NCBI RefSeq assembly: GCF_018069625.1
Contig: NZ_CP072941.1
Coordinates: forward strand, 2,480,001 to 2,544,000
Direction of reading: 5' to 3'
Origin: Streptomyces yatensis
GTDB taxonomy: Bacteria; Actinomycetota; Actinomycetes; Streptomycetales; Streptomycetaceae
DNA length: 64,000 bases
The notes beneath the pieces were generated by a model. That model ran no database searches, was not told where the DNA came from, and saw only the letters and a program-made list of their open reading frames with translations. How positions within the stretch are numbered: position 1 is the stretch's first letter; the number at the start of each line of letters is the position of its first letter. Positions 9,046 through 24,873 of the stretch are shown one piece after another. A program made the translations under genes and the position numbers.

Positions 9046-10479
9046 CTACGGGTGGTGGGGGCAGGCGGCGGGTTCGGCGGGGGCGGTCCGCCGGGACGGA
9101 CGGGGCCCGGCGGTGCTCCGCTCGCGCGGGGTCACCGTGACCATCACGTTCTGCAGCGGCCGCAGCGAGATCACCGGCGAGCCGTACCTCAGCTCGGTCC
9201 CCGGGATCCGGCTGATCCGGAAGCGCTGGTTCACCATGGCCACGATGATGCGCAGCTCCAGCAGCGCCATGAAGTTGCCGACGCACTGCCGGGGTCCCGA
9301 GCCGAACGGGAGGTACGCCATCCGCGGCCGCTCCTTGATGGCCTGCGGGGTGAACCGGTACGGGTCGAAGGCCAGCGGGTTGTCCCAGTGGCGCGGGTTG
9401 TGGTGGGAGACCAGCGGGGACAGCAGCACCGAGGAGCCCGGTTCGACGTCATAGCCGCCGAGGGTGTCCGCGTCCACCGCCGCCCTCGGAAAGATCCAGA
9501 TGGGCGGGTGCATCCGCAGGCTCTCGTCGACGACCATCTTGGTGTACGTGAGCGACTCGGCGCTCGCCACGTCCGGCAGCCCGCCCCCGAGCACCGTGCC
9601 GATCTCGGCGTCCAGCTCCTCCTGGACGCCGGGGTGGCCGGCGATCGACAGCAGCGTCCAGCACAGGGAGACGGCCGTGGTCTCATGGCCGGCCAGATAG
9701 ACGGTGAGCAGCTCGTCCTTGATCTGCTGATCGGTCCAGGGCTCACCGGTGGCCGGGTCGGTGGCCTGCTCCATCAGCGCGATCAGCGGCCCCTCGCCCG
9801 TCTCCGCGTAGCTCCGGCGCACATCGGCCACGATGCGGTCGAAGACCCGGTGGATCCTGAGGATCTTGCGCTGACGGTCCGTCGGGACCCACGAGGGCAG
9901 CATCTCGGTGGCGGTGCCGCGCCGGAACATCACCTCCACCACATCGTCCACGATCGTCTTGAGCATGGCCGAGTCCGGCTTGATGTCGTAGGCGAACAGC
10001 GAGCGGCTGAGGGTGACCAGGGTCAGCCGCAGCATGTCGGTCATCAGGTCGACCGGCTCACCGGCCGCGGCCTTCGCCTCCCAGGTCTCCAGCATCTCCT
10101 CGGTGGCCCGGATGATGTTGGGGATGATGTCGGTGATGGCGTTCTTGAGGAAGACCGGCTGCACCGCCCGCCGGTGGGCGCGCCAGAACTCGCCGTCGGT
10201 GGTGAGCAGTCCCTTGCCCATCACCACGCCGAACTGCTCGTAGAGCGGGCCGCGGACGTAGTTGCCGTTGTTCTCCACCAGTACCCGGCGCACCGCCTCG
10301 GGTTCGGTCACCTGGTGTACCAGGAAGGGGCCGAGCCGCATCCGGACGATCTCGCCGTGGTCGCGCTGCAGACCGAGCAGGAATTCGGCGGTGTTCCGCT
10401 TCCAGGGGCCCAGACTGCCCATCAGCGGGACGCCCTTGGGGCCGGGTGCCAGGCGCGGTGCGGAGGTCGCTGTGGTCAT
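9046..10479 (-). CDS. Cytochrome P450, fatty-acid-hydroxylase-like
   Basis: 477 residues, last gene of the polyketide operon. Heme monooxygenase. Motifs in order: proline-rich hinge PGPKGVPLMGSL at about 13-24; I-helix oxygen-activation motif AGHETT near 250; ExxR as ESLR; heme-binding FGSGPRQCVG near 400. The hinge and AGHETT-type I helix resemble the CYP4/CYP102-like bacterial branch that hydroxylates fatty chains, rather than the shorter macrolide P450s. This fits oxidation of the acyl chain made by the neighbouring synthase (inference). The tail after residue 445 is basic and Pro-rich. No ferredoxin gene is nearby. The ATG overlaps the SDR stop as ATGA, so the two are translationally coupled. 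Confidence 0.95.
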   Translation of the reverse strand: MTTATSAPRLAPGPKGVPLMGSLGPWKRNTAEFLLGLQRDHGEIVRMRLGPFLVHQVTEPEAVRRVLVENNGNYVRGPLYEQFGVVMGKGLLTTDGEFWRAHRRAVQPVFLKNAITDIIPNIIRATEEMLETWEAKAAAGEPVDLMTDMLRLTLVTLSRSLFAYDIKPDSAMLKTIVDDVVEVMFRRGTATEMLPSWVPTDRQRKILRIHRVFDRIVADVRRSYAETGEGPLIALMEQATDPATGEPWTDQQIKDELLTVYLAGHETTAVSLCWTLLSIAGHPGVQEELDAEIGTVLGGGLPDVASAESLTYTKMVVDESLRMHPPIWIFPRAAVDADTLGGYDVEPGSSVLLSPLVSHHNPRHWDNPLAFDPYRFTPQAIKERPRMAYLPFGSGPRQCVGNFMALLELRIIVAMVNQRFRISRIPGTELRYGSPVISLRPLQNVMVTVTPRERSTAGPRPSRRTAPAEPAACPHHP

Positions 10480-11402
10480 CGGTGGTCTCCTTGCTTTCGC
10501 GGCCGCGGCCCGCGGGGCACCGGAAAGAGGCGGCGCACGAAGAGATGGTCGAAAAGGGCGTCGGGCGTAAGGCGCCGCAGGGCGATCGTGCTGTGGGCGA
10601 GGAGTCCGACGGGGTAGCGGGCGCGCGGCCGGGAGCCGCGGGCGCCCTTGGCCACCACCTTCGCCACCCGCCGGGCCACGTCGTCGGACTGGATCGCGAA
10701 GGTGCCCGCCAGGGTCCGGCGGCTGCCGGTGTAGATCGCCTCGAAGTACTCGGCGCTCTCCCGGCGGAAGGTCTCGTACGTCCGGCTCACCGGCCGCAGA
10801 TTGGCGACGTAGGTGGCGCCGAAGCGGGTGGTGCGCACCGGTCCCGGCTCGACGAGGACGACCCGCACCCCGAAGTCGGCCACCTCGTTGCGCAGGGAGT
10901 CGCTGAGCGCCTCCACGGCGTGCTTGGTGGCGTTGTAGAAGCCCGAGCCGGGGACGGCGTAACGGCCGAAGATGGAGGAGATGTTGACGATGGTGCCGCC
11001 GCCGTGGGCGCGCATCGCGGGCAGCACCAGCTGGCTGAGCCGGACCAGTCCGTACACATTGGTCTCGAACTGCTCGCGCACCTCGGCCATGGAGGCTTCC
11101 TCGATACAGCCCGACATGGCGTAGCCGGCGCTGTTGACCAGCGCCCCGACCGCGCCGTGCTCCGCCTCGACCTTGGCGACCGCGGTGGCCATCGACTCCT
11201 CGTCGGTGACGTCGAGCGCCAGGGTGCGGATGCCGAGCGCGGCGAGCTCATCGAGGGTCTCGGGCCGCCGCGCGGTGGCGTATACGGCATGCCCGGCCCG
11301 GTGCAGCCGCAGCGCGCACGCGCGGCCGATACCGGAGGAGCAGCCGGTGATGAGGACCGGGAGGCCGGCCCCGGCGCCCGGGGCCGGCGAGCGGCCGGTC
11401 AC
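10476..11402 (-). CDS. Short-chain dehydrogenase/reductase
   Basis: 308 residues. Classical SDR: TGCSSGIG cofactor motif near residue 18, NSAGYAMSG (NAG-like), catalytic Ser in ISSIFG and YNATK with Tyr and Lys spaced YxxxK. The ARRPE after the second strand suggests NADP(H). The start is the GTG at 11400-11402, overlapping the preceding stop as GTGA; the P450 ATG overlaps this gene's own stop. The C-terminus (LRRLTPDALFDHLFVRRLF) is typical of SDRs acting on hydrophobic alcohols or ketones such as retinol-like and fatty substrates. Likely a tailoring ketone/alcohol oxidoreductase in the polyketide pathway; the substrate is unknown. Confidence 0.92.
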   Translation of the reverse strand: MTGRSPAPGAGAGLPVLITGCSSGIGRACALRLHRAGHAVYATARRPETLDELAALGIRTLALDVTDEESMATAVAKVEAEHGAVGALVNSAGYAMSGCIEEASMAEVREQFETNVYGLVRLSQLVLPAMRAHGGGTIVNISSIFGRYAVPGSGFYNATKHAVEALSDSLRNEVADFGVRVVLVEPGPVRTTRFGATYVANLRPVSRTYETFRRESAEYFEAIYTGSRRTLAGTFAIQSDDVARRVAKVVAKGARGSRPRARYPVGLLAHSTIALRRLTPDALFDHLFVRRLFPVPRGPRPRKQGDHR

Positions 11403-11836
11403 GCGGGGGGCGCGTCGAACGCCCCGAGCTGGGTGGCGAGGTCGTAGCTGTCCATGGAGAACCAGCTCTCCACGATCTTGCCCTCGTCGTTGAACTCGTC
11501 GATGACGATGCCGGGGATCTCCAGCGCGCGGCCCTGCGCCGGGATGATGCCCGCGTAGGGGTCGCCGGTGTGGGTGCCGCGTGCGGTGAACCGGCTGACG
11601 ACCTTGTTCCCGTCCAGGATCCAGTCGTCCACGGTGACCTGGAGGTCGGGGAAGGAGGCGCGCTGCAGCCGCACCCACTCCTTCAGGTGCTCCACGCCTT
11701 CCTTGCCGTTCTCGGCGGTGCCGTGGCTGATGTGATCCTCGGTGGCGCCCTCGTAGATGACGTCCAGATTGCCCTTGTTGAGGCACTGCTCGTAGTAGCG
11801 CGCGAGGACGGCCTTGTTCTGTTCGGGAGTGGACAT
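11399..11836 (-). CDS. SnoaL-like / NTF2-fold protein
   Basis: 145 residues. Single NTF2-like cone fold of the SnoaL/ester-cyclase type: N-terminal helix NKAVLARYYEQCLNKGNLD, then DHISHGTAENG, a central FTARGTHTGD and the C-terminal strand KIVESWFSMD. Members are either small polyketide cyclases acting by acid-base catalysis or hydratases/unknowns. Here it lies between the KR-DH protein and the SDR. It could close or release the chain, since no thioesterase is present, but this is inference. The ATG at 11834-11836 has AAGGGAA upstream; the stop overlaps the SDR start (GTGA). Confidence 0.87.
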   Translation of the reverse strand: MSTPEQNKAVLARYYEQCLNKGNLDVIYEGATEDHISHGTAENGKEGVEHLKEWVRLQRASFPDLQVTVDDWILDGNKVVSRFTARGTHTGDPYAGIIPAQGRALEIPGIVIDEFNDEGKIVESWFSMDSYDLATQLGAFDAPPA

Positions 11837-11861
11837 GGGGTTCCCTTTCTCTTCCGTGGTG

Positions 11862-14243
11862 TTATTCCGTGGTGTTTCCCAGCGGGCCGGAGAGTCCCGA
11901 GACGGTCGCCACGGGGTCTCCGGAGTCTGCGTCGGTGATCCGCCAGACGCCGAGCGAGGGATCGCCCTCGATACGGGTGGGTCCGCGCTCGGCGGAGTGC
12001 GGTGTGATGCGGCCGAGGACCAGCGGGTCCGCGGTGACCGAGAGGCCGTCGCCCTGGGTGGTGCGGCGCCGCACCACGTTCTCCAGCGCGGCGACCGGCA
12101 GGGCCGTCCCGGGTACGAGGGGCGTCGCCCACAGGTCGGCCGGCAGGCAGCGCGGGACCTCGGCCACCAGCCGGCCCGCCGGCTCCACCCCCCATGCGCA
12201 CAGCGGCACCACGGCGCCGCGCCAGTGCAGGAACGGCGGGCCGGAGCGGAGGGTGGTGGTCTGCCGGACGGTGGGGCTCGGCGGGGCGGGCGGCCGTGGC
12301 GCGCCGGTCTCGTGGACGATGCGCAGGCTCGCCTCGGGGCCGTCCGCGGCCCCCTCCCGGCGGTAGCGGACCTCGACGGTCCAGTTGTGCCCCTCGTGGA
12401 AGCCGCGGGCCTCGCGGACCAGCCGGATCGCGGGGCCGTCCAGGCGCAGCAGCGACAGCGGCACCACGATCTCCTCCAGGAGACCGGCCGTGAGCGCCGG
12501 GAAGTCCTCCGGGACGATCCATTCGGCGGCCCGCACGGCGTTCTCCAGCAGGAGGGAGGGCGGCAGCGCGGGGACGCCGTCGATGCGGAAGTCGCCGAGC
12601 GCGGGGGTGTGTTCGGGGTCGAGGACGACGCGTGCCGTCATCCGGGCGTGCGGCTGGTAGGCGGTCACCTCACCGAGGTGAAAGATCTTCGGATAGGCGG
12701 TGGCGAAACCGGGCAGCGCGGGCACCACCGGATAGCCGATGGCCTGTCCGGGGTCGATGGCCTGGCCGAGTGGCCCGACGAAGGTGACCTCGCCCTCGGA
12801 GGCCCCCAGCAGTTCGGCCCGCCAGCGCTCCAGCCCGTCCGCCACGTCGATCGCGGCCATGTAGCGCAGGGTGGCGGCGAAGTTGGCGATCAGTCCGATG
12901 CGGTCCCAGGTGGGCCAGGCGAGGGTCATCACGGGGAACGCGGCCCGGCGGGCGGCCCACTGGCCGAGCCGGGCCAGCCCGTCGTTGGCCGCGGCGTATT
13001 CGAGCTGGCCGACCATGCCGCCGAGGCGTCCGGTGAGGGAGCCGACGCTGCAGAAGAACTTCAGGTCGCGGTCGCGCACCTCCTCGAAGACGTTGAGGAA
13101 GCCCTCGATCTTGACCTCGACGGTGCGCAGGATCTCCTCGTCGGTCTTCTTCGGCAGCCGGGCGGAGGTGTCCACTCCGGCGTTGTGCACCACTCCGGCG
13201 AGCCTGCCGCCCTCCAGCGCGTCCTCGCGCCGGACGAGCTCGCGCACCTGGGCGCGGTCGGTGAAGTCGCAGCGCGCGTACTCGATGCGCAGCCCCTCCC
13301 GCCGGGCGCGGGTCAGATGGGTGGCGAGCTCCCACAGCCGGCGGGTGCGGGCGAGCCGGGCCCGGGTCCGCGCGGGCGACTCGCCCTTCGTACGGCTCGC
13401 CCAGACCTCCTTCTCGTACCGCTTCCACCCGGCCTCGTCCACACCGAACCAGGGCTCGTCCCCGCTCGGGAACGGCTCCCGGCCGGTGACCACGACCCGT
13501 ACGCCGTGCCGGGCGGCCAGCGAGCGGGCCAGCTCCCAGCCGATGCCCCGGCCGCCGCCGGAGATCAGCACGGTGTCCTCGGGGCCGAGGGTGAGGGCGG
13601 GCGGGGCCACGGGCCGGTCCTCGGGGGTGAGGGTGAACCGGCGGCCGTCCCGGTGGCCGACCTCGATCTCGCCGGTACGGCCGAGCTCGGCGGCGACGAT
13701 GCCGGGCAGGTCGGCGGAGGCGGCCAGGTCGATGTCGACGACGCGGGCGTTCACATTGGGGAACTCCCGGTGCAGGGTCTTGGCGAGCCCCGCCCAGATG
13801 CCGCCCAGGGGCTGCTCCAGACCGTCCCGCGGATGCTGGCCCATCCCGCCGCCGAGATAGCTGACGGCGAGATAGAACAGCCGGTCCGCGGCGGTCTCCG
13901 CCGCCCAGTCGTCGTACACGCCGCGCAGCGCGGTCACGGTCTCGGTCAGCGCCTCCCGCCAGGCCCCGGCGAAGGCGGCGGGGTCCGGGTCGTGGGTCCG
14001 GCCCACGGTGAGGTCGACGATGGCGTCCACGGGGCCGGGGCCGTCCGGCTCCCGGCGCACCAGCGCGCCGTGTTCCTTCAGTTCGCGCTCCACCCCGGCG
14101 GCGATGTCCTCCTCGCCGCCTGTCAAGAGCACCCGTATCCCGGCGAGCCGGGGGTGCGGCCCGGCGAGGGGTGGCAGCTCGGTGAGCCGCCACACCATCC
14201 GGGTCACCGGCTGGACCGGCCCGCCGTCCTCGGCCACGGTCAT
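11862..14243 (-). CDS. Second synthase subunit: ketoreductase plus dehydratase-like domain
   Basis: 793 residues. N-terminal part (1-215) looks like the structural half of a PKS ketoreductase. The catalytic KR spans about 220-450, with SGGGRGIG at 228-235, VHNAGV near 353, Ser402 in VGSLTG and Tyr416 in QLEYAAAND. A hot-dog dehydratase-like domain follows from about 535 to 790. Its expected HxxxGxxxxP signature reads F552-RID-G-VPALPP, so the catalytic His is Phe and this DH is probably inactive or structural. No KS, AT or ACP is present. The ATG at 14241-14243 overlaps the TGA of the large synthase (ATGA), which argues for equimolar production and a complex. The longer upstream frame is the shadow of that gene. 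Confidence 0.9.
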   Translation of the reverse strand: MTVAEDGGPVQPVTRMVWRLTELPPLAGPHPRLAGIRVLLTGGEEDIAAGVERELKEHGALVRREPDGPGPVDAIVDLTVGRTHDPDPAAFAGAWREALTETVTALRGVYDDWAAETAADRLFYLAVSYLGGGMGQHPRDGLEQPLGGIWAGLAKTLHREFPNVNARVVDIDLAASADLPGIVAAELGRTGEIEVGHRDGRRFTLTPEDRPVAPPALTLGPEDTVLISGGGRGIGWELARSLAARHGVRVVVTGREPFPSGDEPWFGVDEAGWKRYEKEVWASRTKGESPARTRARLARTRRLWELATHLTRARREGLRIEYARCDFTDRAQVRELVRREDALEGGRLAGVVHNAGVDTSARLPKKTDEEILRTVEVKIEGFLNVFEEVRDRDLKFFCSVGSLTGRLGGMVGQLEYAAANDGLARLGQWAARRAAFPVMTLAWPTWDRIGLIANFAATLRYMAAIDVADGLERWRAELLGASEGEVTFVGPLGQAIDPGQAIGYPVVPALPGFATAYPKIFHLGEVTAYQPHARMTARVVLDPEHTPALGDFRIDGVPALPPSLLLENAVRAAEWIVPEDFPALTAGLLEEIVVPLSLLRLDGPAIRLVREARGFHEGHNWTVEVRYRREGAADGPEASLRIVHETGAPRPPAPPSPTVRQTTTLRSGPPFLHWRGAVVPLCAWGVEPAGRLVAEVPRCLPADLWATPLVPGTALPVAALENVVRRRTTQGDGLSVTADPLVLGRITPHSAERGPTRIEGDPSLGVWRITDADSGDPVATVSGLSGPLGNTTE

Positions 14244-17200
14244 GTCCGGTCCTCCCCCGCCGCTGCCTCTTCGAGCGGGACGGCCTCGCCGGTCTCGGCG
14301 TCGATGTAGCCGATGAGGGTGGCCCGCATGTCCTTCATCTGCAGGAGCATCCGGCCGTCGGGCCGCACCGCGACGAAGCGGTTGCTGATGGCGTCGGCCG
14401 TCAGATCGAAGCCGGGCGGGGTGACGAACAGGTCGACGGCCTCGCCGGAGGCGGCCAGATCGTGGTCGCTGATCTCCTCGTACAGATCGATCCGGCGGAT
14501 CGACAGCGGCGCCGCCACCGGCACCAGATGCCCGTCGACCAGATCCAGCACCCCCACCCGGGCCAGCCCGTCGAGCAGGATGGACGGCACGGTGAACCGG
14601 GACCACACCGGGTCGCCGGCCGGGATGTCGGGGGCGTAGCGGGCGCGCTTGCCGCGGGGGTGGATCCGGGTGTCGGTGGTGGAGACGAACGGGCCGGTCA
14701 GCCGCACCGGGGAGCCGGGCTGGTGGTACGGATCGGGGACCGGGGTCTCCTCCCCCGCCGGCCACTCCTCCCAGCGCGGCGCGGTGGGCGCCTCGGTGTC
14801 CAGCAGCACCCGGGCCAGGAAGTGCACCCGGTCCTTGACCAGGACCACACCGCTGGGCGCCACCACGTCCTCGGTGATCCGCACCTGGACGACGGTCACC
14901 TCGCCGGGGCTGTCGACCAGCTCGGCGCGGATGCGCCGCGGTCCGGCCGGGAGGTCGCGGTAGACCCGCAGGAAGTGCTCGAAGCGCAGATCCTCGAAGG
15001 CGATCACCCGCTTGCCGGGGACCAGGGCGCGGGCGGCCTCGGCGGCCAGTTCGGTGACGAACGTGCCGGGCAGCGTGGCCTCGCCGCGCACCGTGTGGTG
15101 TTCCAGATAGCCGTCGGTCTCCAGGTCGAAGGCGCACTCGTAGACCACCGACCGCTCATCGGACTCCAGCAGCCGGCGCAGGAAGAACCCCGGCCGCTCC
15201 GCCTCGCCCGTGGTCGCCAGATAGCCCGGGTAGAAGCGCTCCACGGTGGCGCGCTCGGCCTCGCCGAGGTGGACGACGGAGGGGCGCCGCACGGGGGCGT
15301 GCAGCTCCTGGACGAAGTGGTGGATGCCCTCGGCGATGGCCATGTTGCTGTACGACCCGGCGCGTTCGTAGTACGCCTTGGTCAGCTCGTTGGCGCCCAT
15401 GCCGACGCCTTCCCACAGCGTCCAGCCGATGGTGAACTCGTCCGTCCGCCCATCGGTGGCCCGGGTGTGGGTCGCGGCGGCGGCCAGGAAGTCGTTGGCC
15501 GCGGCGTAGTCGGCCTCCCCGAGCTGCCCGAAGTAGCCCAGCAGCGAGCCGAAGTTGCACCACAGCCGGGGCGGCGCGGTGCGCAGGGCGCGCTTGAGGT
15601 GGAGGTAGGAGTCCAGCTTCAGATCGCGGATGGCGGTGAACTCGGCGAAGCTCTTGTCCTTGATCAGCCCCGAGCGCTGCAGCCCGGCGGCGTTGACCAG
15701 CAGGTCGATCCGCCCCTGCTCGGCCAGGACGTGGCCGATCGCGCCGTCCACCGCGTCGCCGTCGCGCATGTCGCAGGCGAGGTAGGTGACCCGGCCGGGA
15801 CCGCTGTGGGCGGCCATCTCGTCCAGGTTCCGGCGCGCCGAACGGGCGTTGACCATGCGGTCGAAGGCGCGGTTGATGTCGGCGACGGTGCGGCCGTCGC
15901 GCCGGGCGATCTCCGTCTTGATGTAGCCGGCGCGGCGGGCGGCGAACTCCTCGTCGGTGCCCTCATAGGTCTCCGGCGGCCAGTCGTCCAGGGAGTTGCT
16001 GCCGAGGACGTAGATCCGGGGCCGGAAGTGCTCGGCGACCGCCTTGACCACCTCGGCGGTGATGCCCCGGGCGCCTCCGGCGACCACCACCACGGAGTCC
16101 CGGCCGAGGGCGGCCGGCGCCCCCTCGTCCGGGGCGGCCGGCTCGTCGGAGAGCAGATGGCCCTTCCGCACGCCGTCGATGTCGAACACCGCGGGGAAGA
16201 CCCGCTCGTTCGCGCTCTCCTCCTCGGCCCGGGCGATGGCCTCGGTGAGGTCGGTGGCGGAGGTGCAGAGCGTGAAGGCGAGGCAGGCGTCGCGCTCCAG
16301 GGCCGCGGTCTTCCACAGCCCGGTGAAGAGCCCGGTGTAGGGATGCGGGGTGCCGCCGGGCGTGGCGCCCAGCAGCAGCGCCACGGCCGATGAGCCGGGG
16401 TCGCCGAGGTCGTCGTAGAGGTGCTGGAGGGTCAGATAGGCGGCGTCGTGCAGGGCGGTGAGGGCGGGCGCGGGGCCGTCCGTGGCCGCCCGGCCGAGGT
16501 CACCCACCACCCTGAGGTGGGTGACCCCGGGGCCCGCACCGGACAGCGCCCGGCGGACCGACTCCTCGGTGACCTCGGGCAGATGCTGCCAGCCGGGGCG
16601 CGGGGCCCCGAGCGGCGCCGTGGACAGGACGGTGAGGTCCGCCTCCGGCGGCACGGCACCGGCGAGCAGTTCGGGCGCGTCGGTGAGCACCACCGCGCCC
16701 GCGGGGAGGAACGGGGTGCGCTCGCGCACGGTGCGCGCGGGCAGCTCGGTCAGGACGGGCACCTGGCGGCGGACCCGTACGGGCGTGCCGTCCGCGAGCC
16801 GCCCGTCGGTGGCGAACGCGGCGGGCAGCGCGGCCGGGACCGCCTCGGCGGGCCCGGCGTCCTCACCGGTCCCCGGGATGGTCAGCCGGAGCCGGGCCCC
16901 GGCGGCGCCCTCGCTCTCGTCGGTGGCGATCTCCACGCTCCCCGAGGGCCGGTGCAGCGCCTTGAGGACGGCGAGACCACCGGCCGCGCCCAGATAGCGG
17001 GCGTGCTCGGGGGCGGGCGCGCCGCACAGCAGGATCTCGTCCGGGGCGGCCTCGCCGCGCCCCGCCTCGACGGCACCGAGCGGCTCGTCCACGTACGCCA
17101 GCACCTCGAGCCCCGCGGCGCGGGCCCGCTCCTCGGTGGTCAGGGCGAACAGGAAGGCGCCCTCGGCGAGTTCCTGGGCCTCCGGCGGCAGCAGCTCGCC

Positions 17201-20200
17201 GATCAGCGTCCGGTACTCCGGGAGGCTGTTGCCGTTGATCCCGCCCGCGAGCGCGAAGTCGAGCTCCCCGGTGCGCAGATAGCGGCCCGCGGAGGTGATG
17301 GAGGAGACGGCGGAGGCGAAGCCGGAGTCCATCGTCATGTTGGGGCCGTTGAGGTCGAAGTAGTTCGCCACCCGGGCCGAGATGATGTTGGGCATCTGAC
17401 CGGGGAAGGAGTCCTCGTTGGATTCCGGGATCATGTCGCGTACGCGGTCGCCGAGCCGCTCCAGCACATCCGGCAGGGCATCGGAGCCCAGCTCGCCGAG
17501 GGCCTCGGCGATGTCGTCGAGATAGCAGCGGTTGGCGTAGAGCATCGCGGCGCGGGTCGGGCCCATATGGCCCACGAACACGCCGGTCTTCAGCGCCCGC
17601 TCCTGCCAGAAGTCCGGCATCTGGTCGCGGAGTTGATGGGCGCACTCCACGATCATCAGCTGGCAGCGGTCCAGGGCCCGGATGGTCTTGGGAGGCAGCC
17701 GGACCTTGTTGAACGGCGGCGCCGGGTACTCCTCGCCGAAGCTGTCCCGGGGGCGCGGACCGCCGCCCAGCCAGCGGGTGACGTCCTCGCGGCCCGCCAG
17801 CCCCGGCAGATGGGCCGACCAGCCGACGATCGCCACCCGGCTGCCGGGGTCGGGGACCTTGGTGACGGTCGCCGGGGCCCGGTCGGTGGCGGTGGCGTTC
17901 GCGGCGGCGGGGCGCGGCCGGTGCTCGGAGACGATCAGATGGGCGTTGGTGCCGCCGAAGCCGAACCCGGACACCGCGGCCAGCCGCGGGCCCTCCGGCT
18001 TCCCCGGCCACTCCTTGTGCTCGGGGGTGATCTCCAGACCGGTTTCGTCGAGCCGGAAGTCCTCGCGGGGCCGGGAGAAGCGGAACTGACCGGGGATGGT
18101 GTGCTCGGCCAGGCCCAGCAGGTTCTCGATGAGCGAGACCACGCCCGCCGCCCAGCCGGTGTGGCCGATCAGGGACTTGTTGGAGGTGACCTGGGCCGGT
18201 CCGGCGGTACCGTAGTACTCCCGCAGCGTGGTGAACTCGGCGAGGTCACCGGCCGGGGTGCCGGTGGCGTGGGCGTTGACCCAGCTCACCGCGGGGCCCT
18301 CGACCTCGCCCGCCTCCAGGGCGCGCCGGACCGCCAGGCTCTGGCCCGCGGCGTTGGGCGCGTAGATGGCCTTGCCCTTGCCGTCGGAGGACGAGCCGAA
18401 CGCCCGGAGCACCCCGAGCACCTCGTCCCCGTCGGCCCGCGCCCGGCTCAGCCGCTTGAGGACGACCAGCGCGGCGCCGTCGGCGAAGATCACCCCGTCG
18501 GCGTCCTCGTCGAGCGCGTGCACCTCACCGCGCTTGGAGAGCCCCTGCAGCTTGGAGAAGAGCACGGTGCCGCGCGGCGCGAGCGCGAAGGCGCCACCGC
18601 AGACCGCGATGTCCTGCTTGCCCATGAGCAGGCCCTTGGCGGCGATGTCGATCGCGTACAGGGAGGAGGAGCAGGCGGTGTCCACCATGTGCAGCTCGGT
18701 GGAGGGCGGCAGCAGTCCGCGCATCGCCAGCTCGCCGACGCGGTGCGGCAGAAAGCGCGAGCGGTCCTGGCCGGCCCGCCAGTAGCGGCGGGCCAGGGCC
18801 GCCTCGATGTCGCCGCCGAGGGTGGTGCGCTCGCCGTCCTCCAGCGGCAGGTCCCGGAGGATGTCCTGGGTCATCCGGGTGACGCTGTCCAGCACCCCGG
18901 CCTCTTCGAGGTGCTGGCTGCCGTCGGGGGTGTAGCCGACGACGAAGGAGCAGCGGTCGGTGTCCTGGTGGCGCACCCCGTCCAGGGCCTGGACCAGGCT
19001 GTGGCGCAGCCACATGGTGGTCAGCTCGTGGTCGTCCGCGCCGTCGGCCATGCTGTCGACCGAGCCGGGGGCGGCCTCGAAGTCGGTGATGAAGACGCAG
19101 CGGTCGGCGTACGCCTTGTCCTCGGCGGCGGTGTCGACGGCGTGGAAGTTCTCATGCCGCCAGCGGTCCCGGGGGATCTTGACGAACAGCTCGTCACCGG
19201 TCGTACGGAGCTTCCAGAACTCCTCGGGGCTGTTCGCCCCGGCGACCGCCAGGCCCATGCCGACGACGGCGATCGCGTCGTCGGGGACATCGGGGGGCAG
19301 ATCGGGGCCGGTCGCGTCCACGGGCTCGGTGACGGCGACCTCGGTGACGGCGGGCTCGGTGACGGCGGGCTCGGTGACGGCGGCCGGGGCGGCCTGGGGG
19401 CGTGCGGGCTCCGGCTCCGGTGCGGCCTCTTCCCGTACGGGAGCGGCGGCGGGCGGGGACAGGAGGGCGGCGCCCAGCGTCAGTCCCCCGTCCGCGAGCA
19501 CCACCTGTCCGGTGATCCACCGCGAGGCGTCGGAGGCCAGGAAGGCGACGACGTCGGCGAACTCCTCGGCGGTGCCCAGCCGTCCGAAGGGCGTCGCCCT
19601 GGCGATCACCTCCTGCATCTCCCGGGCCCGGGGGAACTTGTCCGCGACATCGCTTTCGAGCATGGCGGCCGAGGCGGTGTTCACCCGGATGCCGAGCGGG
19701 GCGAACTCCACGGCGAGATAGCGGGTCGCCGCCTCGGCGGCCGCCTTGGCGGGGGCGCAGGCCGAGTAGTTGGCCATCACCATCTGCGAGCCGCCGAGCG
19801 CCGAGACGGTGACGATCGACCCGCCGCCGGTGCGCGCCATCAGCGGGGCCGCGCCGCGGGCGCAGCGCAGTCCCCCCTTGTAGTTGGTGTCGATGGCCTT
19901 GGCGATGTCCTCGTCGGTCACCTCGGCCAGGGGCAGCAGGGCCCCGTTGGCGGCGCTGTTGACCAGGATGTCCAGCCGCCCGTGGCGCTCCTCGATCTCG
20001 GCGAACATCCGGTCGACCTGCTCCTGCCGGGCCACCGAGGCCCGTGCGAGCTGGACCCGGGCGCCGGTTGCCACCAGTTCGTCCCTGGTGCGCTTGGCCT
20101 GGTCGTGCGAGTGGAAATAGTTGAGGACGATGTCGGCGCCGCGGGCCGCGAGGGTCTGGGCGATCGCCTTTCCCACGCCCTTGGAACCTCCGGTGACCAG

Positions 20201-20227
20201 GGCCACCTTCCCCGTGAGGTCATTCAT
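14240..20227 (-). CDS. Iterative polyketide/PUFA-like synthase: ER(FabL)-KS-CLF-KR-DH
   Basis: 1995 residues. Domains: (a) 1-255, an enoyl-ACP-reductase-like SDR with GGSKGVGKA at 13-21 and Y154/K161 in Y(x)6K spacing, the FabL signature; (b) 256-315, Ala/Pro/Glu linker with VTEPA repeats; (c) 316-770, a complete ketosynthase with Cys519 in DTACSSS, His653 in HATGT and His689 in NKSLIGHT; (d) 797-about 1120, a ketosynthase-like chain-length factor whose Cys is Phe970 (MDSGFASA); (e) 1145-1650, ketoreductase with GGARGIT at 1384-1390, Lys1537, Ser1561 and Tyr1574; (f) 1695-1985, dehydratase with intact H1711-TVR-G-EATLP. AT and ACP are on the preceding gene. Architecture resembles PUFA synthases and heterocyst-glycolipid synthases. 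ATG 20225-20227 follows AAGGAG by 11 bases. Confidence 0.93.
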   Translation of the reverse strand: MNDLTGKVALVTGGSKGVGKAIAQTLAARGADIVLNYFHSHDQAKRTRDELVATGARVQLARASVARQEQVDRMFAEIEERHGRLDILVNSAANGALLPLAEVTDEDIAKAIDTNYKGGLRCARGAAPLMARTGGGSIVTVSALGGSQMVMANYSACAPAKAAAEAATRYLAVEFAPLGIRVNTASAAMLESDVADKFPRAREMQEVIARATPFGRLGTAEEFADVVAFLASDASRWITGQVVLADGGLTLGAALLSPPAAAPVREEAAPEPEPARPQAAPAAVTEPAVTEPAVTEVAVTEPVDATGPDLPPDVPDDAIAVVGMGLAVAGANSPEEFWKLRTTGDELFVKIPRDRWRHENFHAVDTAAEDKAYADRCVFITDFEAAPGSVDSMADGADDHELTTMWLRHSLVQALDGVRHQDTDRCSFVVGYTPDGSQHLEEAGVLDSVTRMTQDILRDLPLEDGERTTLGGDIEAALARRYWRAGQDRSRFLPHRVGELAMRGLLPPSTELHMVDTACSSSLYAIDIAAKGLLMGKQDIAVCGGAFALAPRGTVLFSKLQGLSKRGEVHALDEDADGVIFADGAALVVLKRLSRARADGDEVLGVLRAFGSSSDGKGKAIYAPNAAGQSLAVRRALEAGEVEGPAVSWVNAHATGTPAGDLAEFTTLREYYGTAGPAQVTSNKSLIGHTGWAAGVVSLIENLLGLAEHTIPGQFRFSRPREDFRLDETGLEITPEHKEWPGKPEGPRLAAVSGFGFGGTNAHLIVSEHRPRPAAANATATDRAPATVTKVPDPGSRVAIVGWSAHLPGLAGREDVTRWLGGGPRPRDSFGEEYPAPPFNKVRLPPKTIRALDRCQLMIVECAHQLRDQMPDFWQERALKTGVFVGHMGPTRAAMLYANRCYLDDIAEALGELGSDALPDVLERLGDRVRDMIPESNEDSFPGQMPNIISARVANYFDLNGPNMTMDSGFASAVSSITSAGRYLRTGELDFALAGGINGNSLPEYRTLIGELLPPEAQELAEGAFLFALTTEERARAAGLEVLAYVDEPLGAVEAGRGEAAPDEILLCGAPAPEHARYLGAAGGLAVLKALHRPSGSVEIATDESEGAAGARLRLTIPGTGEDAGPAEAVPAALPAAFATDGRLADGTPVRVRRQVPVLTELPARTVRERTPFLPAGAVVLTDAPELLAGAVPPEADLTVLSTAPLGAPRPGWQHLPEVTEESVRRALSGAGPGVTHLRVVGDLGRAATDGPAPALTALHDAAYLTLQHLYDDLGDPGSSAVALLLGATPGGTPHPYTGLFTGLWKTAALERDACLAFTLCTSATDLTEAIARAEEESANERVFPAVFDIDGVRKGHLLSDEPAAPDEGAPAALGRDSVVVVAGGARGITAEVVKAVAEHFRPRIYVLGSNSLDDWPPETYEGTDEEFAARRAGYIKTEIARRDGRTVADINRAFDRMVNARSARRNLDEMAAHSGPGRVTYLACDMRDGDAVDGAIGHVLAEQGRIDLLVNAAGLQRSGLIKDKSFAEFTAIRDLKLDSYLHLKRALRTAPPRLWCNFGSLLGYFGQLGEADYAAANDFLAAAATHTRATDGRTDEFTIGWTLWEGVGMGANELTKAYYERAGSYSNMAIAEGIHHFVQELHAPVRRPSVVHLGEAERATVERFYPGYLATTGEAERPGFFLRRLLESDERSVVYECAFDLETDGYLEHHTVRGEATLPGTFVTELAAEAARALVPGKRVIAFEDLRFEHFLRVYRDLPAGPRRIRAELVDSPGEVTVVQVRITEDVVAPSGVVLVKDRVHFLARVLLDTEAPTAPRWEEWPAGEETPVPDPYHQPGSPVRLTGPFVSTTDTRIHPRGKRARYAPDIPAGDPVWSRFTVPSILLDGLARVGVLDLVDGHLVPVAAPLSIRRIDLYEEISDHDLAASGEAVDLFVTPPGFDLTADAISNRFVAVRPDGRMLLQMKDMRATLIGYIDAETGEAVPLEEAAAGEDRT
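19328..19387. repeat. 15-bp tandem repeat encoding the VTEPA linker of the synthase
   Basis: Four in-frame copies of GGTGACGGCGGGCTC-like units (19328, 19343, 19358, 19373) encode repeated VTEPA between the ER and KS domains. It is a flexible interdomain linker and a likely length-variable site. Confidence 0.8.
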
Positions 20228-20266
20228 GGAACGACTGACTCCTTCTGCGACGAGGGGGTGGGCGCT

Positions 20267-21817
20267 TCAGCCCGTGGCGGAGGCGGGCGCATGGGCCCCC
20301 TGGTCGTTCATCTGCTGCAGCACAAAGTCGGTGATCTTGCCCATGGTGTTGTAGGTGGCCAGCCGGAAGCCGGACTCGCGCGGCGGCAGCCCGTAACGAC
20401 TGGAGACCCTGGACAGGAGTTCGACCTGCTTGACGGAGTCGACTCCCAGCTCGGCCTCCAGCTGCACCTCGTCCTCGAAGACGTCCTCGGGGTATTCGAG
20501 CGCCTCGGCGTAGAGGGTCCGCAGCTCGTCGAAGAGCCGCTCGCGGTCGTACTCCTCCGGCCGCGGCCCGGACGCGGACGAGGCGGACGACGCGGACGAG
20601 GCCGCCGGGGCGGGCTCGGGAGCGGCCTGGTCGGCGGGCTCGGGCTCTGCGGTGTGCTCGGGCTCGGGGCGCCCGGCCTCGGCGGACTTGCGGAAGGCGT
20701 CCAGTTCGGTGCGGACCAGCTCCAGCACCATGTGGCCGCGCTCGCTCCAGTACGCCGCGAAGACGTCGGAGGGCACCGAGGGGGCCAGCAGCTCGGCGAG
20801 CCCGCCGCGCTCGGGCGCGGCCAGACCGGCCTCGCGCAGCGCCTCGAGGGTTCCGTCGAGCGCGAGCCGTCCGCCGGTCAGGGCCAGCGTGGGCAGCGAC
20901 CGCACCTCGGAGCCGGCGGTCACCTTGGCGACCAGCTTGGAGAGCGCGGCGCGTCCGCCCGCCTCCACGAACACCTCGGCGCCGCTCTCCCGCAGATGCC
21001 GTACGGCCGCGGCGAACCGCACCGGCCGGGTGAAGTGCTCGGCCAGCAGATCGGCGAGCACATCGCCCGGCTCGTAGTAGCGCTGCAGGATCGGCGAGTA
21101 GACCGGGCGGTTCAGCGGGTGCTGGTCCAGCTTCCGTACGTAGGCGGCGAACTCGGGGGCGGCGGGGGCGAGCGCCGGGGTGTGGAAGGGGAAGGGGGTG
21201 TCGATCTCGATGGCGCCGACGTCCAGCTGTCCGGCGATCGCCACGACCCGGTCCAGGATTCCGGCGGGGCCGCTGACCACGGTCTGCTCGTCGTGGTTCT
21301 CGGTGGCGACGGCCAGCAGCGGCTCGTCCACCAGCTCCAGCAGCTTGCGGGTGCGCTCGGCGCTCGCGGCCAGGGCCACCATGCGGCCGTCGACACCGCC
21401 CTGCCGCTCGATCACGGCGACGCGCTGGGCGACGATCCGGACCCCGTCCTCGACCGAGAAGGCCCCGGCCGCCACCAGGGCGGTGATCTCGCCGAGGCTG
21501 TGCCCGGCCAGGACGTCGGGGGTGGCGCCCTGGGCGGCGAGGATCTCGTAGGCGGCAAGGCCGGCGCCGTAGATGGCGACCTGGGAGGCCCAGGGGTCGT
21601 TGTCGAGCAGGTCGCGCAGATCGGCCTTGCGCTCGCCGAAGAGCACCTCGGAGATGCGGCGGCCGTAGAGCTCCTCGGTCACGGCGTCGAGCCGCTCGAA
21701 GACCCGGCCGATCTGGGGATGGAGCTCCTCGGCCCGGCGGAGCGCGTCGCCGTCGAAGCCGCCTTGTCCGGGGAAGAGAAAGGCCGTCGTGACGCCTGTG
21801 GACGGATTGCTGGACAT
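20267..21817 (-). CDS. Malonyl-CoA acyltransferase fused to a single acyl carrier protein
   Basis: 516 residues. The acyltransferase covers about 10-320: FPGQGG at 15-20, catalytic Ser107 in GHSLGE, and FHTP with His212. An Ala/Glu/Pro and then Ser/Ala-rich linker (about 370-410) leads to one carrier domain with phosphopantetheine Ser461 in LGVDSVKQVE; the DSVKxVE form is typical of PUFA-synthase carriers. PUFA synthases usually carry several tandem ACPs, so a single one is notable. It supplies the extender unit and carrier to the synthase in trans. The ATG at 21815-21817 is chosen over an upstream ATG because GGAGG lies 7 bases before it. A 39-bp gap separates it from the synthase gene. Confidence 0.94.
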   Translation of the reverse strand: MSSNPSTGVTTAFLFPGQGGFDGDALRRAEELHPQIGRVFERLDAVTEELYGRRISEVLFGERKADLRDLLDNDPWASQVAIYGAGLAAYEILAAQGATPDVLAGHSLGEITALVAAGAFSVEDGVRIVAQRVAVIERQGGVDGRMVALAASAERTRKLLELVDEPLLAVATENHDEQTVVSGPAGILDRVVAIAGQLDVGAIEIDTPFPFHTPALAPAAPEFAAYVRKLDQHPLNRPVYSPILQRYYEPGDVLADLLAEHFTRPVRFAAAVRHLRESGAEVFVEAGGRAALSKLVAKVTAGSEVRSLPTLALTGGRLALDGTLEALREAGLAAPERGGLAELLAPSVPSDVFAAYWSERGHMVLELVRTELDAFRKSAEAGRPEPEHTAEPEPADQAAPEPAPAASSASSASSASGPRPEEYDRERLFDELRTLYAEALEYPEDVFEDEVQLEAELGVDSVKQVELLSRVSSRYGLPPRESGFRLATYNTMGKITDFVLQQMNDQGAHAPASATG

Positions 21818-21954
21818 GCCGATGCCTCCATGAGTGAGGTGGTGACGGTGCGTGAGGTGCGCCACCCGCGCGGGTGGCGCGGCGCTGTGGGCGGCCGATG
21901 GCCGTGTTGTGAGGTCGCGGCCGCGCCGTGTGGGCGTGCCGCGGGAGAGCCGGG

Positions 21955-23328
21955 CTAGGCGGCGCCGGCGGCCGGGGAGTCGAGCAGGAAGGTGCCCATG
22001 CTCCCCAGGTTGGCGGCGATCAGCCGGTCGGCGAGCCGGGTCGCCGGGGGCAGATGCCGGGGGGCGCCGCGGACGAGCCAGCGCACCATCCGGATCTTCC
22101 AGCCCGGCTCCGGTCCCGGCGGGATGTGGTCGAAGAGGGCGTGGATATTGGCCGGGGAGTAGAACTCGGAGGGCGGGACGATCGTGGCGAACATCCCGAC
22201 CATGCCGCTGCCGTGGTGCGGGCTGCGTGCCATCGCCCGGATGAACTCCAGCTCCTCGCGGTTGTAGTCGCCGATCGCGGCGTGGTCGCGGGTGTACCGG
22301 AAGTGGCCGCCCACCAGGGCGTCCCGGCGCCGGGCGTAGTCGGCGAGCGCGGCGGCGAGGTCACGGTCGCCGGACAGGGCGGGCTCCACGGCCTCCACGA
22401 GCAGTTCGGCACCGCGCAGCGAGTCGGTGATACCGGCGGCGGTGATGGGGTCGCGGGTGTAGCCCGCGTCGCCGACGAGGGCCCAGCCGGGGCCGTGGCA
22501 GTGGCGCAGGAAGTTGGGGACCGCGCCGGTCATCCACTTGTCGACGCGCCGGGTCTCCCGCAGCCGCGCCGCGAACTCGGGGTCGACGTCCTCGAAGGCG
22601 GAGACGACCGTGGTGTCCCGCTCCCCGTCGCCGGAGGCCTTGAAGTCCTTGACCGGCAGGGCCAGTCCGACGATGGTCAGCCCGTCGTGGGTGGGCCAGG
22701 TGAAGGCGTGCTGGTGGCGGTGGCGGTAGGTGCGCACCCTGCCGTCGTGCGGCAGATCGGCCCAGTACGACCAGTGGCTCTTGTTGAGCACCGGATGGGA
22801 GTCGTACTTCTCGGCCCCCACCAGCCTGGCGACGGTGGAGTTGGAGCCGTCGGCGCCCACCACCAGCCGGGCGTGCTCGACCAGGGGCGTGCGGTCCTCG
22901 GTCTCGGCCCGGACGCCGATGACGGTGCCCTGGCCGTCCGTCAGCAGTTCGCGCAGGGCGACCCGCTCCCGCAGCTCCGCCCCGGCCTTGACGGCGGCCT
23001 CGAGCAGGATCTCGTCCAGCTTGGCGCGCTCCGGGGAGTACGCCTCGGCCACGCCCTCGACGGCGGGCAGCTTGGCCATCAGCTGGACGGGTCCGCTCTG
23101 CAGACCGTAGGAGTGGATGGGCGGGCAGCCGGTGGCCGCCACCTCGTCCAGCAGTCCCCAGCGCTTCAGCCGGAGAATTCCCGGGGGGTGGACCAGATTT
23201 GTGGCGGCCCCCTTGCCGCCGGGGAATGTGGCCCGGTCCAGGAGAAGGACCCGGTATCCCGCTCTTGCCAGGAGCATCGCCGTCGATGCCCCGCTGATGC
23301 GCGCTCCTACCACAATGACGTCGTACAT
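21955..23328 (-). CDS. FAD-dependent monooxygenase/oxidoreductase
   Basis: 457 residues, para-hydroxybenzoate-hydroxylase/geranylgeranyl-reductase-like flavoprotein. Motifs: N-terminal GARISGASTAMLLARAG with the following LLLDR; GADGSNSTVARLVG (DG motif) near residue 160; and GDAGYTRDPITAAGI (GD motif) near 290. It lacks the WxWxIP signature of flavin halogenases, so hydroxylation, epoxidation or reduction of the polyketide product is more likely than halogenation. Two in-frame ATGs exist; the second (23326-23328, MYDVIVVG) is chosen because GGGGG lies 5 bases upstream. The alternative start is 23340. Lies between the MFS pump and the AT-ACP gene, same strand. Confidence 0.9.
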   Translation of the reverse strand: MYDVIVVGARISGASTAMLLARAGYRVLLLDRATFPGGKGAATNLVHPPGILRLKRWGLLDEVAATGCPPIHSYGLQSGPVQLMAKLPAVEGVAEAYSPERAKLDEILLEAAVKAGAELRERVALRELLTDGQGTVIGVRAETEDRTPLVEHARLVVGADGSNSTVARLVGAEKYDSHPVLNKSHWSYWADLPHDGRVRTYRHRHQHAFTWPTHDGLTIVGLALPVKDFKASGDGERDTTVVSAFEDVDPEFAARLRETRRVDKWMTGAVPNFLRHCHGPGWALVGDAGYTRDPITAAGITDSLRGAELLVEAVEPALSGDRDLAAALADYARRRDALVGGHFRYTRDHAAIGDYNREELEFIRAMARSPHHGSGMVGMFATIVPPSEFYSPANIHALFDHIPPGPEPGWKIRMVRWLVRGAPRHLPPATRLADRLIAANLGSMGTFLLDSPAAGAA

Positions 23329-23409
23329 AGCGACCCCCATACCCAGCGGTCACCCGGGGCCCGGGAACCGGTGGATCATCTTTTTCGCTCTGTCTTCGCT
23401 CTGCCGAAT

Positions 23410-24873
23410 TTAGTTGCGCGACCGACTCGGGAGGTTTCCCTGGTGTGAATCCTCGGCGGCTCCCGAAGAAATCACCTTCGTTTCGCCGGGTACGGTGCGG
23501 CCGCGCGGTGCCGTGAGAATGGCCAGACAGCCGAGGGCGGCGATTCCGGCGCCGATCCAGGCGGCGGGCCGCAGCCCGTCCACGAATTCCTGGGGCGAGC
23601 CGTATCCGCCCAGTGTGGTGAATACGGAGGTGAGCACCGCGACGCCGAGTGCGCCGCCGAGCTCCCGGAACGTGTTGTTGGCGCCCGAGGCGATTCCCTG
23701 GTCGCGGGGCGCGACGATGCTCATCGCCATTTCCGCGACGGGCGAGAAGAACAGCCCGAGGCCGATTCCGCCGAGCACCAGACCGGGCACCTGATCGGCA
23801 TAGGCGGTGTCCGCGCTCACCACGGACGCCAGCCAGCCCAGCCCCGCGGCCTCGAACAGCAGGCCCGCGGCGACCACCAGACGGTTGCCGAGCCGGGCGG
23901 TCAGCAGCGCCGCCAGCGGCGCGACGACGACCGGCATCGCCGTCCAGGGAAGCATCTTCACGCCCGCCTCCAGCGGCGAGAAGCCCTGGATGTTCTGCAT
24001 GAACTGGGTGAGCAGGAAGACCAGTCCGAACATGGCCGCGAACATCAGCAGACTGGCCGCGTTGACCGCGCTGAACGCGCGGTTGCGGAACAGCCGCATC
24101 GGCAGCATGGGTTCGGCGGTGCGCAGCTCCCAGCCGACGAACAGCGCGAGGACCACCAGGCCGCCGGCCAGGAAGCCGATCACCCGGCCGCTGGACCAGC
24201 CGTGCTCGGTGGTGGACACCAGCGCGTAGACCACGCCGAACACCCCGAGGCTGACCAGCACGGTGCCCACCGGGTCGAGCGAGGTGTCCGGGCGGGTGGA
24301 CTCGGCCAGCTTCCAGAGGCCGAGCACCAGCACCAGCACGCCGATCGGCACATTGACCCAGAAGATCCACTCCCAGGAGATCTTCTCCACCACGGCCCCG
24401 CCGATCAGCGGGCCGAGCGCGACCGCGAGCCCGCTGAGGGCGCCCCAGACGCCCAGCGCGAGACCGCGCCGGCGCTCGGGGACGGCGACGGTCAGCAGCG
24501 TCAGCGTCAGCGGCATCACCACGGCCGCCCCGAGACCCTGTACGGCACGGGCGGCGATCAGGGCGTCCGCGCTGCCGGACAGCGCCGCGGCGGCGGAGGC
24601 CCCGGTGAAGACGACGAGGCCGGCCAGGAACACCCGGCGGCGCCCGAACCGGTCCCCGGCGGCCGCACCGGCCATCAGGAAGACCGAGAAGGTGAGGGTG
24701 TAGCCGTTCACCGTCCACTCCAGGTCCTGGAGGCTGGTGCCCAGGTCCTTCTGGATGGCGGGCAGCGCGGTGATCACGACGAGGTTGTCCAAGGCGGCCA
24801 TGAAGACGGTGAGTCCGGACACCACCAGCGTCCACACGGGGTTCATTCCGCTCGGGCCGGAACGGTCAGCCAT
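23410..24873 (-). CDS. MFS drug/product exporter, DHA2 (EmrB/QacA) family
   Basis: 487 residues, about 14 hydrophobic segments. Proton-driven efflux pump. Visible signatures: ALDNLVVITALPAIQKDLG at the end of the first membrane helix (DHA2 motif D1-like), GDRFGRRRVFLAG (MFS motif A) near residue 75, and GLGAAVVMPLTLTLLTVAVP (motif C region) near 135. It is the first gene of the biosynthetic operon and probably exports the product, giving self-protection. The ATG is preceded by GGAAAGG at 7 bases. The C-terminus is polar and cytoplasmic. Confidence 0.93.
   Translation of the reverse strand: MADRSGPSGMNPVWTLVVSGLTVFMAALDNLVVITALPAIQKDLGTSLQDLEWTVNGYTLTFSVFLMAGAAAGDRFGRRRVFLAGLVVFTGASAAAALSGSADALIAARAVQGLGAAVVMPLTLTLLTVAVPERRRGLALGVWGALSGLAVALGPLIGGAVVEKISWEWIFWVNVPIGVLVLVLGLWKLAESTRPDTSLDPVGTVLVSLGVFGVVYALVSTTEHGWSSGRVIGFLAGGLVVLALFVGWELRTAEPMLPMRLFRNRAFSAVNAASLLMFAAMFGLVFLLTQFMQNIQGFSPLEAGVKMLPWTAMPVVVAPLAALLTARLGNRLVVAAGLLFEAAGLGWLASVVSADTAYADQVPGLVLGGIGLGLFFSPVAEMAMSIVAPRDQGIASGANNTFRELGGALGVAVLTSVFTTLGGYGSPQEFVDGLRPAAWIGAGIAALGCLAILTAPRGRTVPGETKVISSGAAEDSHQGNLPSRSRN

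Follow-up and report, generated by a model that had tools for sequence, protein, structure and literature searches.

A predicted iterative ketosynthase-chain length factor synthase operon in Streptomyces yatensis and its relatives in several bacterial phyla

Genes and domains of the operon

The window analysed here is a 64,000-nucleotide stretch of Streptomyces yatensis DNA (contig NZ_CP072941.1, positions 2,480,001 to 2,544,000), corresponding to 2.48-2.54 Mb of a 10.36-Mb single-contig genome whose closest relatives in protein and genome searches belong to the Streptomyces violaceusniger group. An operon of eight genes was found at 9046-24873 on the minus strand, with an exporter gene (24873-23410) first and a cytochrome P450 gene (10479-9046) last. 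Its largest gene (14240-20227) encodes a megasynthase of 1995 amino acids (aa) composed of an enoyl reductase (ER), a ketosynthase (KS), a chain length factor (CLF), a ketoreductase (KR) and a dehydratase (DH). On either side of it lie the genes of an acyltransferase-acyl carrier protein (AT-ACP) and of a second KR joined to an altered DH (KR-DH*). Domains were called with Pfam and NCBIfam, and the CLF and DH* domains, which Pfam did not flag as such, were read from motifs. Genes overlap by 4 bases at three junctions (14240-14243, 11399-11402 and 10476-10479), so translation is probably coupled.

In a genome scan, 119 stretches were confirmed and the best 80 retained, giving 79 related loci, and a near-full-length ER-KS-CLF-KR-DH protein could be aligned from 70 of them. 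Only rows covering more than 75% of the window protein were retained (removed: 9/79 loci for the synthase, 1/75 for AT-ACP, 4/72 for KR-DH* and 0/68 for the P450), and the alignment counts given here include the window row. The KS domain (17858-19282), assigned by alignment and tree, kept C519/H653/H689 in 71/71 aligned rows, and the aligned CLF domain (16958-17836) carried Gly969 in place of the active-site Cys in all 71. The catalytic part of the first KR (KR1; 15410-16093, Pfam KR at residues 1379-1606) retained S1561/Y1574/N1578, and the polyketide synthase (PKS)-type DH domain (DH1; 14318-15166, PKS_DH_N) retained H1711 and D1886, each in 71/71 rows.

The N-terminal domain of the synthase (19463-20227) is a short-chain dehydrogenase/reductase (SDR). 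Its best solved relative among 37 matches was the FabL enoyl-ACP reductase 3oic (3.2e-52), ranking above FabG entries. It aligned at the Y-x6-K spacing of FabL (Y154/K161), and FabG 4jro required a 3-residue gap. Of the 25 NCBIfam matches shown, the highest-ranking SDR model was NF005975 FabL, at 224 bits, below its 328-bit cut-off. Taken together, the comparisons support an assignment as a FabL-type ER.

The AT-ACP protein (20267-21817; 516 aa from an ATG or 532 aa from an upstream GTG) consists of a Pfam Acyl_transf_1 domain and one PP-binding domain. The closest solved relatives of the AT were mostly malonyl transacylases; S107/H212 of the AT were kept in 75/75 rows and S461 of the ACP in 74/75. 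The KR-DH* protein (11862-14243, 793 aa; Pfam KR 1.1e-25) is related to the KR-DH end of the synthase (27% over 452 positions). The catalytic part of its KR (KR2; 12900-13574, within the Pfam KR stretch) kept S402/Y416/N420 in 69/69 rows. Pfam returned nothing for its DH* domain (11865-12626) in the window protein, and a weak PKS_DH_N match was obtained in the KR-DH* of a relative, P0130. When DH* was lined up with DH1 by eye, starting from the conserved Pro of each motif, the Asp position was Glu (E721) in 67/69 rows, and the His position was Phe in 52, Val in 14 and Tyr in 1 among the 67 of 69 rows with a residue printed. These alignments support the loss of the catalytic His-Asp pair in DH*. 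P0130 is itself a KR-DH*-SnoaL fusion in which the KR-DH* match ends at residue 684, and the fusion may be a frameshift.

Purifying selection was detected in seven genes divided into 12 parts (dN/dS 0.10-0.52 against 4 loci, by simple counting, which is biased at high GC; the pump and regulators were left out). Since the synthase could be aligned from 70/79 loci and the seven genes are under purifying selection, the gene set is not a product of chance.

The remaining operon genes encode predicted tailoring and transport proteins. The P450 (9046-10479, 477 aa; PF00067 5.7e-78) kept its heme ligand C399 in 69/69 aligned rows. A stand-alone SDR of 308 aa with a GTG start (10476-11402; Pfam adh_short) overlaps both the P450 gene and the gene of a 145-aa SnoaL-like cyclase/hydrolase (11399-11836; PF07366 6.3e-26), the closest solved relatives of which are IdmH and TsrD. 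Upstream of AT-ACP lie a flavin (FAD)-dependent enzyme of the halogenase/geranylgeranyl-reductase superfamily (21955-23340; Pfam FAD_binding_3) and a major facilitator superfamily (MFS) exporter of EmrB/QacA type (23410-24873; TIGR00711 5.4e-87, over cut-off). No thioesterase or phosphopantetheinyl transferase (PPTase) domain was found by Pfam in the operon proteins; for the PPTase this is ordinary, since four PPTase matches lie elsewhere in the genome. On all of these points the original prediction, made from the letters of the sequence, was borne out: it had described the eight genes as one operon, with the ER fused ahead of the KS, the AT fused to a single ACP, an altered DH beside the second KR, and neither thioesterase nor PPTase in sight.

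The operon extends beyond 24873 to a gene for a small LuxR-type (GerE) regulator on the same strand (24966-25268, 100 aa; PF00196). A gene for an IclR-type regulator on this strand (25458-26387; PF01614, start uncertain) is probably an upstream member of the cluster, because some of the 17/79 loci with a homologue lack flanking synteny. Codon 28 of the LuxR-type gene is TTA, the only TTA among ten genes examined, and across the 12 loci with a homologue it was TTA in the 7 closest and CTN in the other 5. A TTA codon implies bldA dependence, and its retention in the 7 closest loci suggests bldA control of this gene in the species group.

The outer neighbours (squalene/phytoene synthase-type, TetR, ATP-binding cassette (ABC) transporter and glycosyltransferase genes) were conserved as a group in just the close relatives L007-L014, within contig reach, and gave weak or isolated matches in other loci. 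Two squalene/phytoene synthase-like genes, which we take to be of hopanoid type, lie downstream of the operon (4764-6664; Pfam run on the L014 homologue only), and a thiolase and 3-hydroxyacyl-CoA dehydrogenase pair lies at the far end of the window (60022-63540).

Distribution and neighbourhoods of the family

A protein search with the 1995-aa synthase yielded 5669 proteins at E ≤1e-30 among 7981 candidates, other PKSs included, and a search with the KR-DH* protein yielded 179 at 1e-40 among 7992 candidates. The 120 listed synthase homologues carried KS and KR domains, nearly all with an SDR set in front (precomputed Pfam lists). Streptomyces accounted for 31 of the 79 loci. Other Actinomycetota were represented by Nocardia, Saccharopolyspora, Nonomuraea, Kribbella, Micromonospora and further genera; Pseudomonadota by Burkholderia, Paraburkholderia and Methylocapsa; Bacillota by Paenibacillus, Tumebacillus and a Symbiobacteriaceae metagenome-assembled genome (MAG); and Chloroflexota by Dictyobacter and a Chloroflexi MAG. 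Uniqueness of the gene set did not hold: its architecture is that of a family found across several phyla.

The distribution of the family across phyla is patchy. A CLF-linker query matched 23/246 sampled Streptomyces genomes at 1e-30, own genome counted; weaker matches (33-47% identity) may represent more distant KS-CLF proteins. In samples drawn evenly over three of the phyla, the family was present in 2/396 Actinomycetota genomes (own genome counted), in 1/299 Pseudomonadota at 1e-20 (the sample centre itself) and in 2/151 Chloroflexota at 1e-20 (both already among the 79 loci).

At the detection thresholds used, and with some of the 79 loci ending at contig ends, AT-ACP was found in 74 loci, KR-DH* in 68, the P450 in 68, the FAD enzyme in 24, the SDR in 22, SnoaL in 19, the pump in 14 and LuxR in 12. 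Exactly AT-ACP, synthase, P450 and KR-DH* were present in 38/79 loci. In the search for the same eight genes, proposed along with the original prediction, the order FAD enzyme, AT-ACP, synthase, KR-DH*, SnoaL, SDR and P450 was complete in 18/79 loci, all Streptomyces, 8 of them with LuxR and pump also in front. By gene content and order, the window set is a conserved Streptomyces subtype within the wider core. In L045, L062, L066 and L075, the FAD enzyme and SDR (49-61% identical) accompanied synthases that were more divergent (43-48%), in part on the opposite strand, as if the two travelled as a cassette. A second, different SnoaL-like protein was seen near 8/79 loci (L031 19073-19534; Pfam on L031).

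Several relatives joined these components in one protein. An AT was fused ahead of ER-KS-CLF-KR-DH in P0061 and a P450 behind it in P0120. KR-DH* was fused to a UDP-glycosyltransferase in five listed proteins (P0219, P0222-P0224 and P0227), three of them from Umezawaea, and because of this fusion the product may be a glycoside in those strains. The same fusion was observed in L027 and L039 near 19350-20835. An ACP-like stretch noticed by eye in P0223 was confirmed by neither Pfam nor BLAST and is not claimed.

Neighbouring genes were clustered and Pfam was run on one or two representatives of each cluster; the gene caller placed some genes on the wrong strand (e.g., in L007), so that the cluster counts are approximate. 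Gene clusters 20 and 24, with representatives opposite in strand to the P450/KR-DH* region, were judged gene-calling artefacts. Exporter genes near the relatives included MMPL (10 of the 79 loci), FtsX-type permease (10) and LolA-like genes (5), as well as HlyD/ABC/outer-membrane export sets in 5-6 Burkholderia loci. In the Saccharopolyspora loci L026 (20620-25929), L035 (20595-25880) and L051 (20669-25996), a multidomain biotin-dependent acyl-CoA carboxylase of about 1770 aa adjoined the core (clustering, with Pfam on L026). The exporters and the carboxylase fit a lipid-like product.

Among the Burkholderia and Paraburkholderia loci, L036-L038, L050, L054, L057, L065, L072, L078 and L083 carried FtsX-type permease, LolA-like and/or HlyD-ABC-outer membrane genes; a conserved protein of about 300-770 aa (cluster 17) from these genera had no Pfam match in one representative. 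Flavin monooxygenases (FMOs) adjoined the core in 12 loci. A Baeyer-Villiger reading of these enzymes was dropped, as their motif ended in Tyr, an FMO trait, in 12/12.

Ketosynthase phylogeny and proposed function

The KS tree contained 69 rows: the window, 28 family loci chosen for spread from the 79, the own-genome paralogue, 11 PfaA KSs of polyunsaturated fatty acid (PUFA) synthases (TIGR02813 matches, 9 over the curated cut-off), 6 PfaC-like KSs beside PfaA genes (L116 Pfam-checked), 4 PUFA-like KSs of the own genome, 9 other type I ("modular") and 8 type II KSs, whose labels are ours and were given without a domain search, and 1 ungrouped; HglE, enediyne and trans-AT sets were left out. 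The family KSs formed one clade with support 100/99, outside the PfaA, PfaC, own PUFA-like and other type I KSs. Each of the PfaA, PfaC, modular and type II sets was likewise a single clade, and with the root on type II the family stood beside a joint modular-plus-PUFA clade (99/92). Flags were raised for several long branches and for unusual compositions.

In approximately unbiased (AU) tests, a clade of the family with PfaA plus own PUFA KSs was rejected (p 0.026), and clades with all PUFA rows (p 0.40), with PfaC (p 0.397) or with the modular and other type I KSs (p 0.138) were not. In this tree the family is a separate KS lineage, for which the AU tests leave several deep sisters possible. 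The original prediction had called for this comparison and had named an ordinary modular type I position as the outcome that would speak against it. The family separated from PfaA and PfaC, but a common clade with all PUFA rows was not rejected; likewise, the best tree placed the KS outside the modular clade, but a union with that clade was not rejected either. In L081 (Streptomyces ruber), excluded from the 69-row tree, a second KS fell among PfaA in a FastTree run, and a PUFA-like gene may lie beside the family synthase there.

We consider it probable that the synthase of this operon is an iterative, reducing enzyme of type I from a distinct KS-CLF lineage, and that the operon also supplies the means to oxidise and export what the synthase makes. 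Iteration is the simplest reading because a single condensing KS, a single CLF and a single ACP serve the whole operon, and the compact iterative synthase with a KS-CLF pair and an unusual domain set that had been predicted is supported to this extent. In the AT-ACP protein, the AT would charge the single ACP with malonyl units, and the KS, paired with the non-condensing CLF on the same chain, would extend the acyl chain repeatedly. KR1 and DH1 would act on the beta-keto group, which the FabL-type ER would saturate in some cycles at least. The separate KR-DH* would act as a second active ketoreductase whose DH partner lacks the usual His-Asp chemistry, and may leave a chosen position hydroxylated. 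The P450, core in most relatives, would then oxidise the chain. In the Streptomyces subgroup, the FAD monooxygenase, the SDR and the SnoaL-like enzyme would oxidise it further and probably cyclise it or open an epoxide. The MFS pump would export the product, and the LuxR regulator with its TTA codon would link expression to development. What the sequence itself shows is the domains, their intact catalytic residues and conservation, the gene order and the fusions; the order of these steps, the release of the chain and the nature of the product are proposed in the same sense.

Several observations weigh against this account. No release enzyme was visible in the operon. The P450 was undetected in 11/79 loci and KR-DH* in 11/79, some of them at contig ends. 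In L047, L060, L063 and L080 only AT-ACP and synthase were detected, and a minimal synthase may therefore work without P450 and KR-DH*. Of the 12 parts, DH* had the highest dN/dS in half of the four comparisons and ranked second in the remaining half (0.42-0.52), and DH* may for this reason be only structural.

An alternative that we regard as unlikely is a type II-like highly reducing polyene system, in which the ER is rarely or never active and the oxidases and SnoaL functionalise a polyene. Type II polyene systems work with one KS-CLF pair, a single ACP and separate KR and DH, and the operon resembles them in this logic. An intact DH1 in 71/71 rows agrees with it, as does the relation of the SnoaL protein to IdmH, a cyclase acting on a reduced polyketide. 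However, the ER Tyr and Lys were kept in 69/71 aligned rows and the dN/dS of the ER was low (0.12-0.23 against the 4 loci), and the ER is therefore probably used; moreover, the KS lies outside the type II clade.

We judge it improbable that the locus is a true PUFA-type (Pfa) or heterocyst-glycolipid (HGL)-type synthase in rearranged form that uses the Pfa mechanism to produce a long fatty acid, either polyunsaturated or hydroxylated. The KS-CLF on one protein recalls PfaC, the KR followed by a PKS-type DH recalls the end of PfaA, lipid-type exporters stand beside the relatives, and the unrejected AU clades with all PUFA rows or PfaC alone leave room for a deep relation. The operon nevertheless lacks a FabA-like DH and tandem ACPs, its ER is of SDR type in place of the NMO type of PfaD, its KS branches apart from PfaA, from PfaC and from the PUFA-like KSs of its own genome, and the genome already holds two PfaA/PfaBC-like loci. 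On these hallmarks the filing under "PUFA/heterocyst-glycolipid type" made in the original prediction was rejected, with the qualification that a deeper PUFA clade was not.

It appears doubtful that the operon is an ordinary type I polyketide pathway with a product already described outside the open-access literature. The family is common in sequenced streptomycetes, including S. rapamycinicus and S. venezuelae strains, and may have been characterised there. Against this, the homologue names were generic (SDR family oxidoreductase, KR domain-containing protein or type I polyketide synthase, among 120 listed each for synthase and KR-DH*, many of them nameless). No characterised homologue was recognised in the searches made of the open-access literature, in line with the earlier claim that no characterised product matched, and domain-string searches of that literature gave nothing fitting. 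A KS-KS-KR string in the available text of PMC2613160 belongs to a large multi-ACP assembly line of S. atroolivaceus with a different architecture. The sole lead was amycomicin, to which Streptomyces papers assign "type I PKS" clusters; it was dropped because its synthase is described in the available part of PMC9967187 as KS-AT-DH-ER-KR-ACP. PUFA-PKS-nonribosomal peptide synthetase hybrids are described in the available part of PMC13291983.

Finally, chlorination of the product by the FAD enzyme acting as a halogenase is very improbable: the closest solved relatives of the enzyme are the halogenases 3e1t (1.1e-22) and 8zop (1.7e-21), but the halogenase motif WxWxIP was absent from all 25 aligned rows, its site being occupied by FTWPTHDG in 20/25 and by close variants in the other 5, and ClmS, the sole halogenase model among the 25 NCBIfam matches shown, scored 36.6 of 900 bits. 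Because of the missing motif, the enzyme is taken as a putative monooxygenase.

Returning to the iterative reducing synthase, we tentatively suggest, at somewhat less than even probability, that the family constitutes a new cross-phylum class, made up of AT-ACP, FabL-ER-KS-CLF-KR-DH, a core P450 and a trans-acting KR-DH*, in which the KR with the disarmed DH writes a retained hydroxyl into the chain and the P450 oxidises it, giving oxygenated specialised lipids without a known member. If this is true, a whole lineage of iterative synthases, found in streptomycetes, Bacillota, Chloroflexota and bacteria related to Burkholderia, yields products of a class for which no assignment was found; the listed synthase homologues, where named, are mostly labelled "SDR family oxidoreductase". 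A conserved inactive DH* beside an active KR offers a testable idea for how an iterative enzyme picks the site of a hydroxyl, and the compact core (AT-ACP, ER-KS-CLF-KR-DH, P450 and KR-DH*) is small enough for rebuilding and testing.

Comparison with known systems

PUFA synthases (PfaA-PfaD; Shulse and Allen types A and B) share with the window a KS-CLF on one chain, AT, ACP, KR, DH and ER spread over few proteins, and, at the PfaA C-terminus, a KR followed by a PKS-type DH. They differ in that the PfaC reference L116 has two FabA-like stretches, whereas Pfam found none in the window proteins, and the PfaA reference L103 has five ACP stretches, whereas the window has one PP-binding domain. The window ER is a FabL-type SDR fused ahead of the KS, unlike the NMO-type (TIM-barrel) ER of PfaD; the AT is fused to the ACP, unlike that of PUFA synthases; and the KS lies outside the PfaA and PfaC clades. 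In the Chloroflexi MAG G250, the genome of L028, a family member and a true PfaA (over the TIGR02813 cut-off) are both present.

Twenty types of Pfa-like clusters are described in PMC3098273, of which types L and M include Streptomyces, and the ER-KS-CLF-KR-DH architecture was not seen in the text of that paper, figures aside. These actinobacterial secondary lipid synthases and the two PfaA/PfaBC-like loci of the S. yatensis genome, L086 (G000:C1:996000-1014000) and L087 (G000:C1:9634000-9653000), resemble the window in being Streptomyces iterative systems with KS, AT, ACP and KR; L086 and L087 may belong to type L or M. In L087 an NMO-type ER is fused ahead of KS-AT-ACP-KR (Pfam), and L086 looked alike by eye. 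Both differ from the window in this NMO-type ER in one chain and in their KS clade, and the L086 locus contains one of the four PPTase matches of the genome. A distant family member with 34% identity lies in the same genome at 9.966-9.972 Mb (L088, G000:C1:9955000-9974999, 9037-17831), accompanied by an AT-ACP of its own, a protein resembling KAS III and, read by eye, an MFS-like gene. The KAS III-like protein has, by eye, a Ser at the usual Cys position.

Bacillus FabL (3oic), the best solved relative of the window ER, has the same Y-x6-K spacing; unlike it, the window ER is a megasynthase domain and stays below the cut-off of the FabL model. Type II highly reducing KS-CLF systems, such as those of ishigamide type, likewise combine one KS-CLF pair and one ACP with repeated reductive action, but in the window the KS and CLF are fused in a type I protein and the KS falls outside the type II clade. 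Enediyne PKSs carry KS-AT-ACP-KR-DH-PPTase in one chain; by comparison of architectures, the window has its AT and ACP on a separate protein and no PPTase domain. For modular type I PKSs, KS-AT-ACP in cis would be expected, and in the window the AT and ACP lie on a protein other than the KS.

The amycomicin synthase is, like the window, a single-ACP iterative system beside P450s in actinomycetes, but it joins its domains in one chain without a CLF (PMC9967187, available part). What distinguishes the family, and is present in the window, is the combination of a FabL-type ER, a KS, a CLF with Gly, a KR and a DH in one chain beside an AT-ACP gene.

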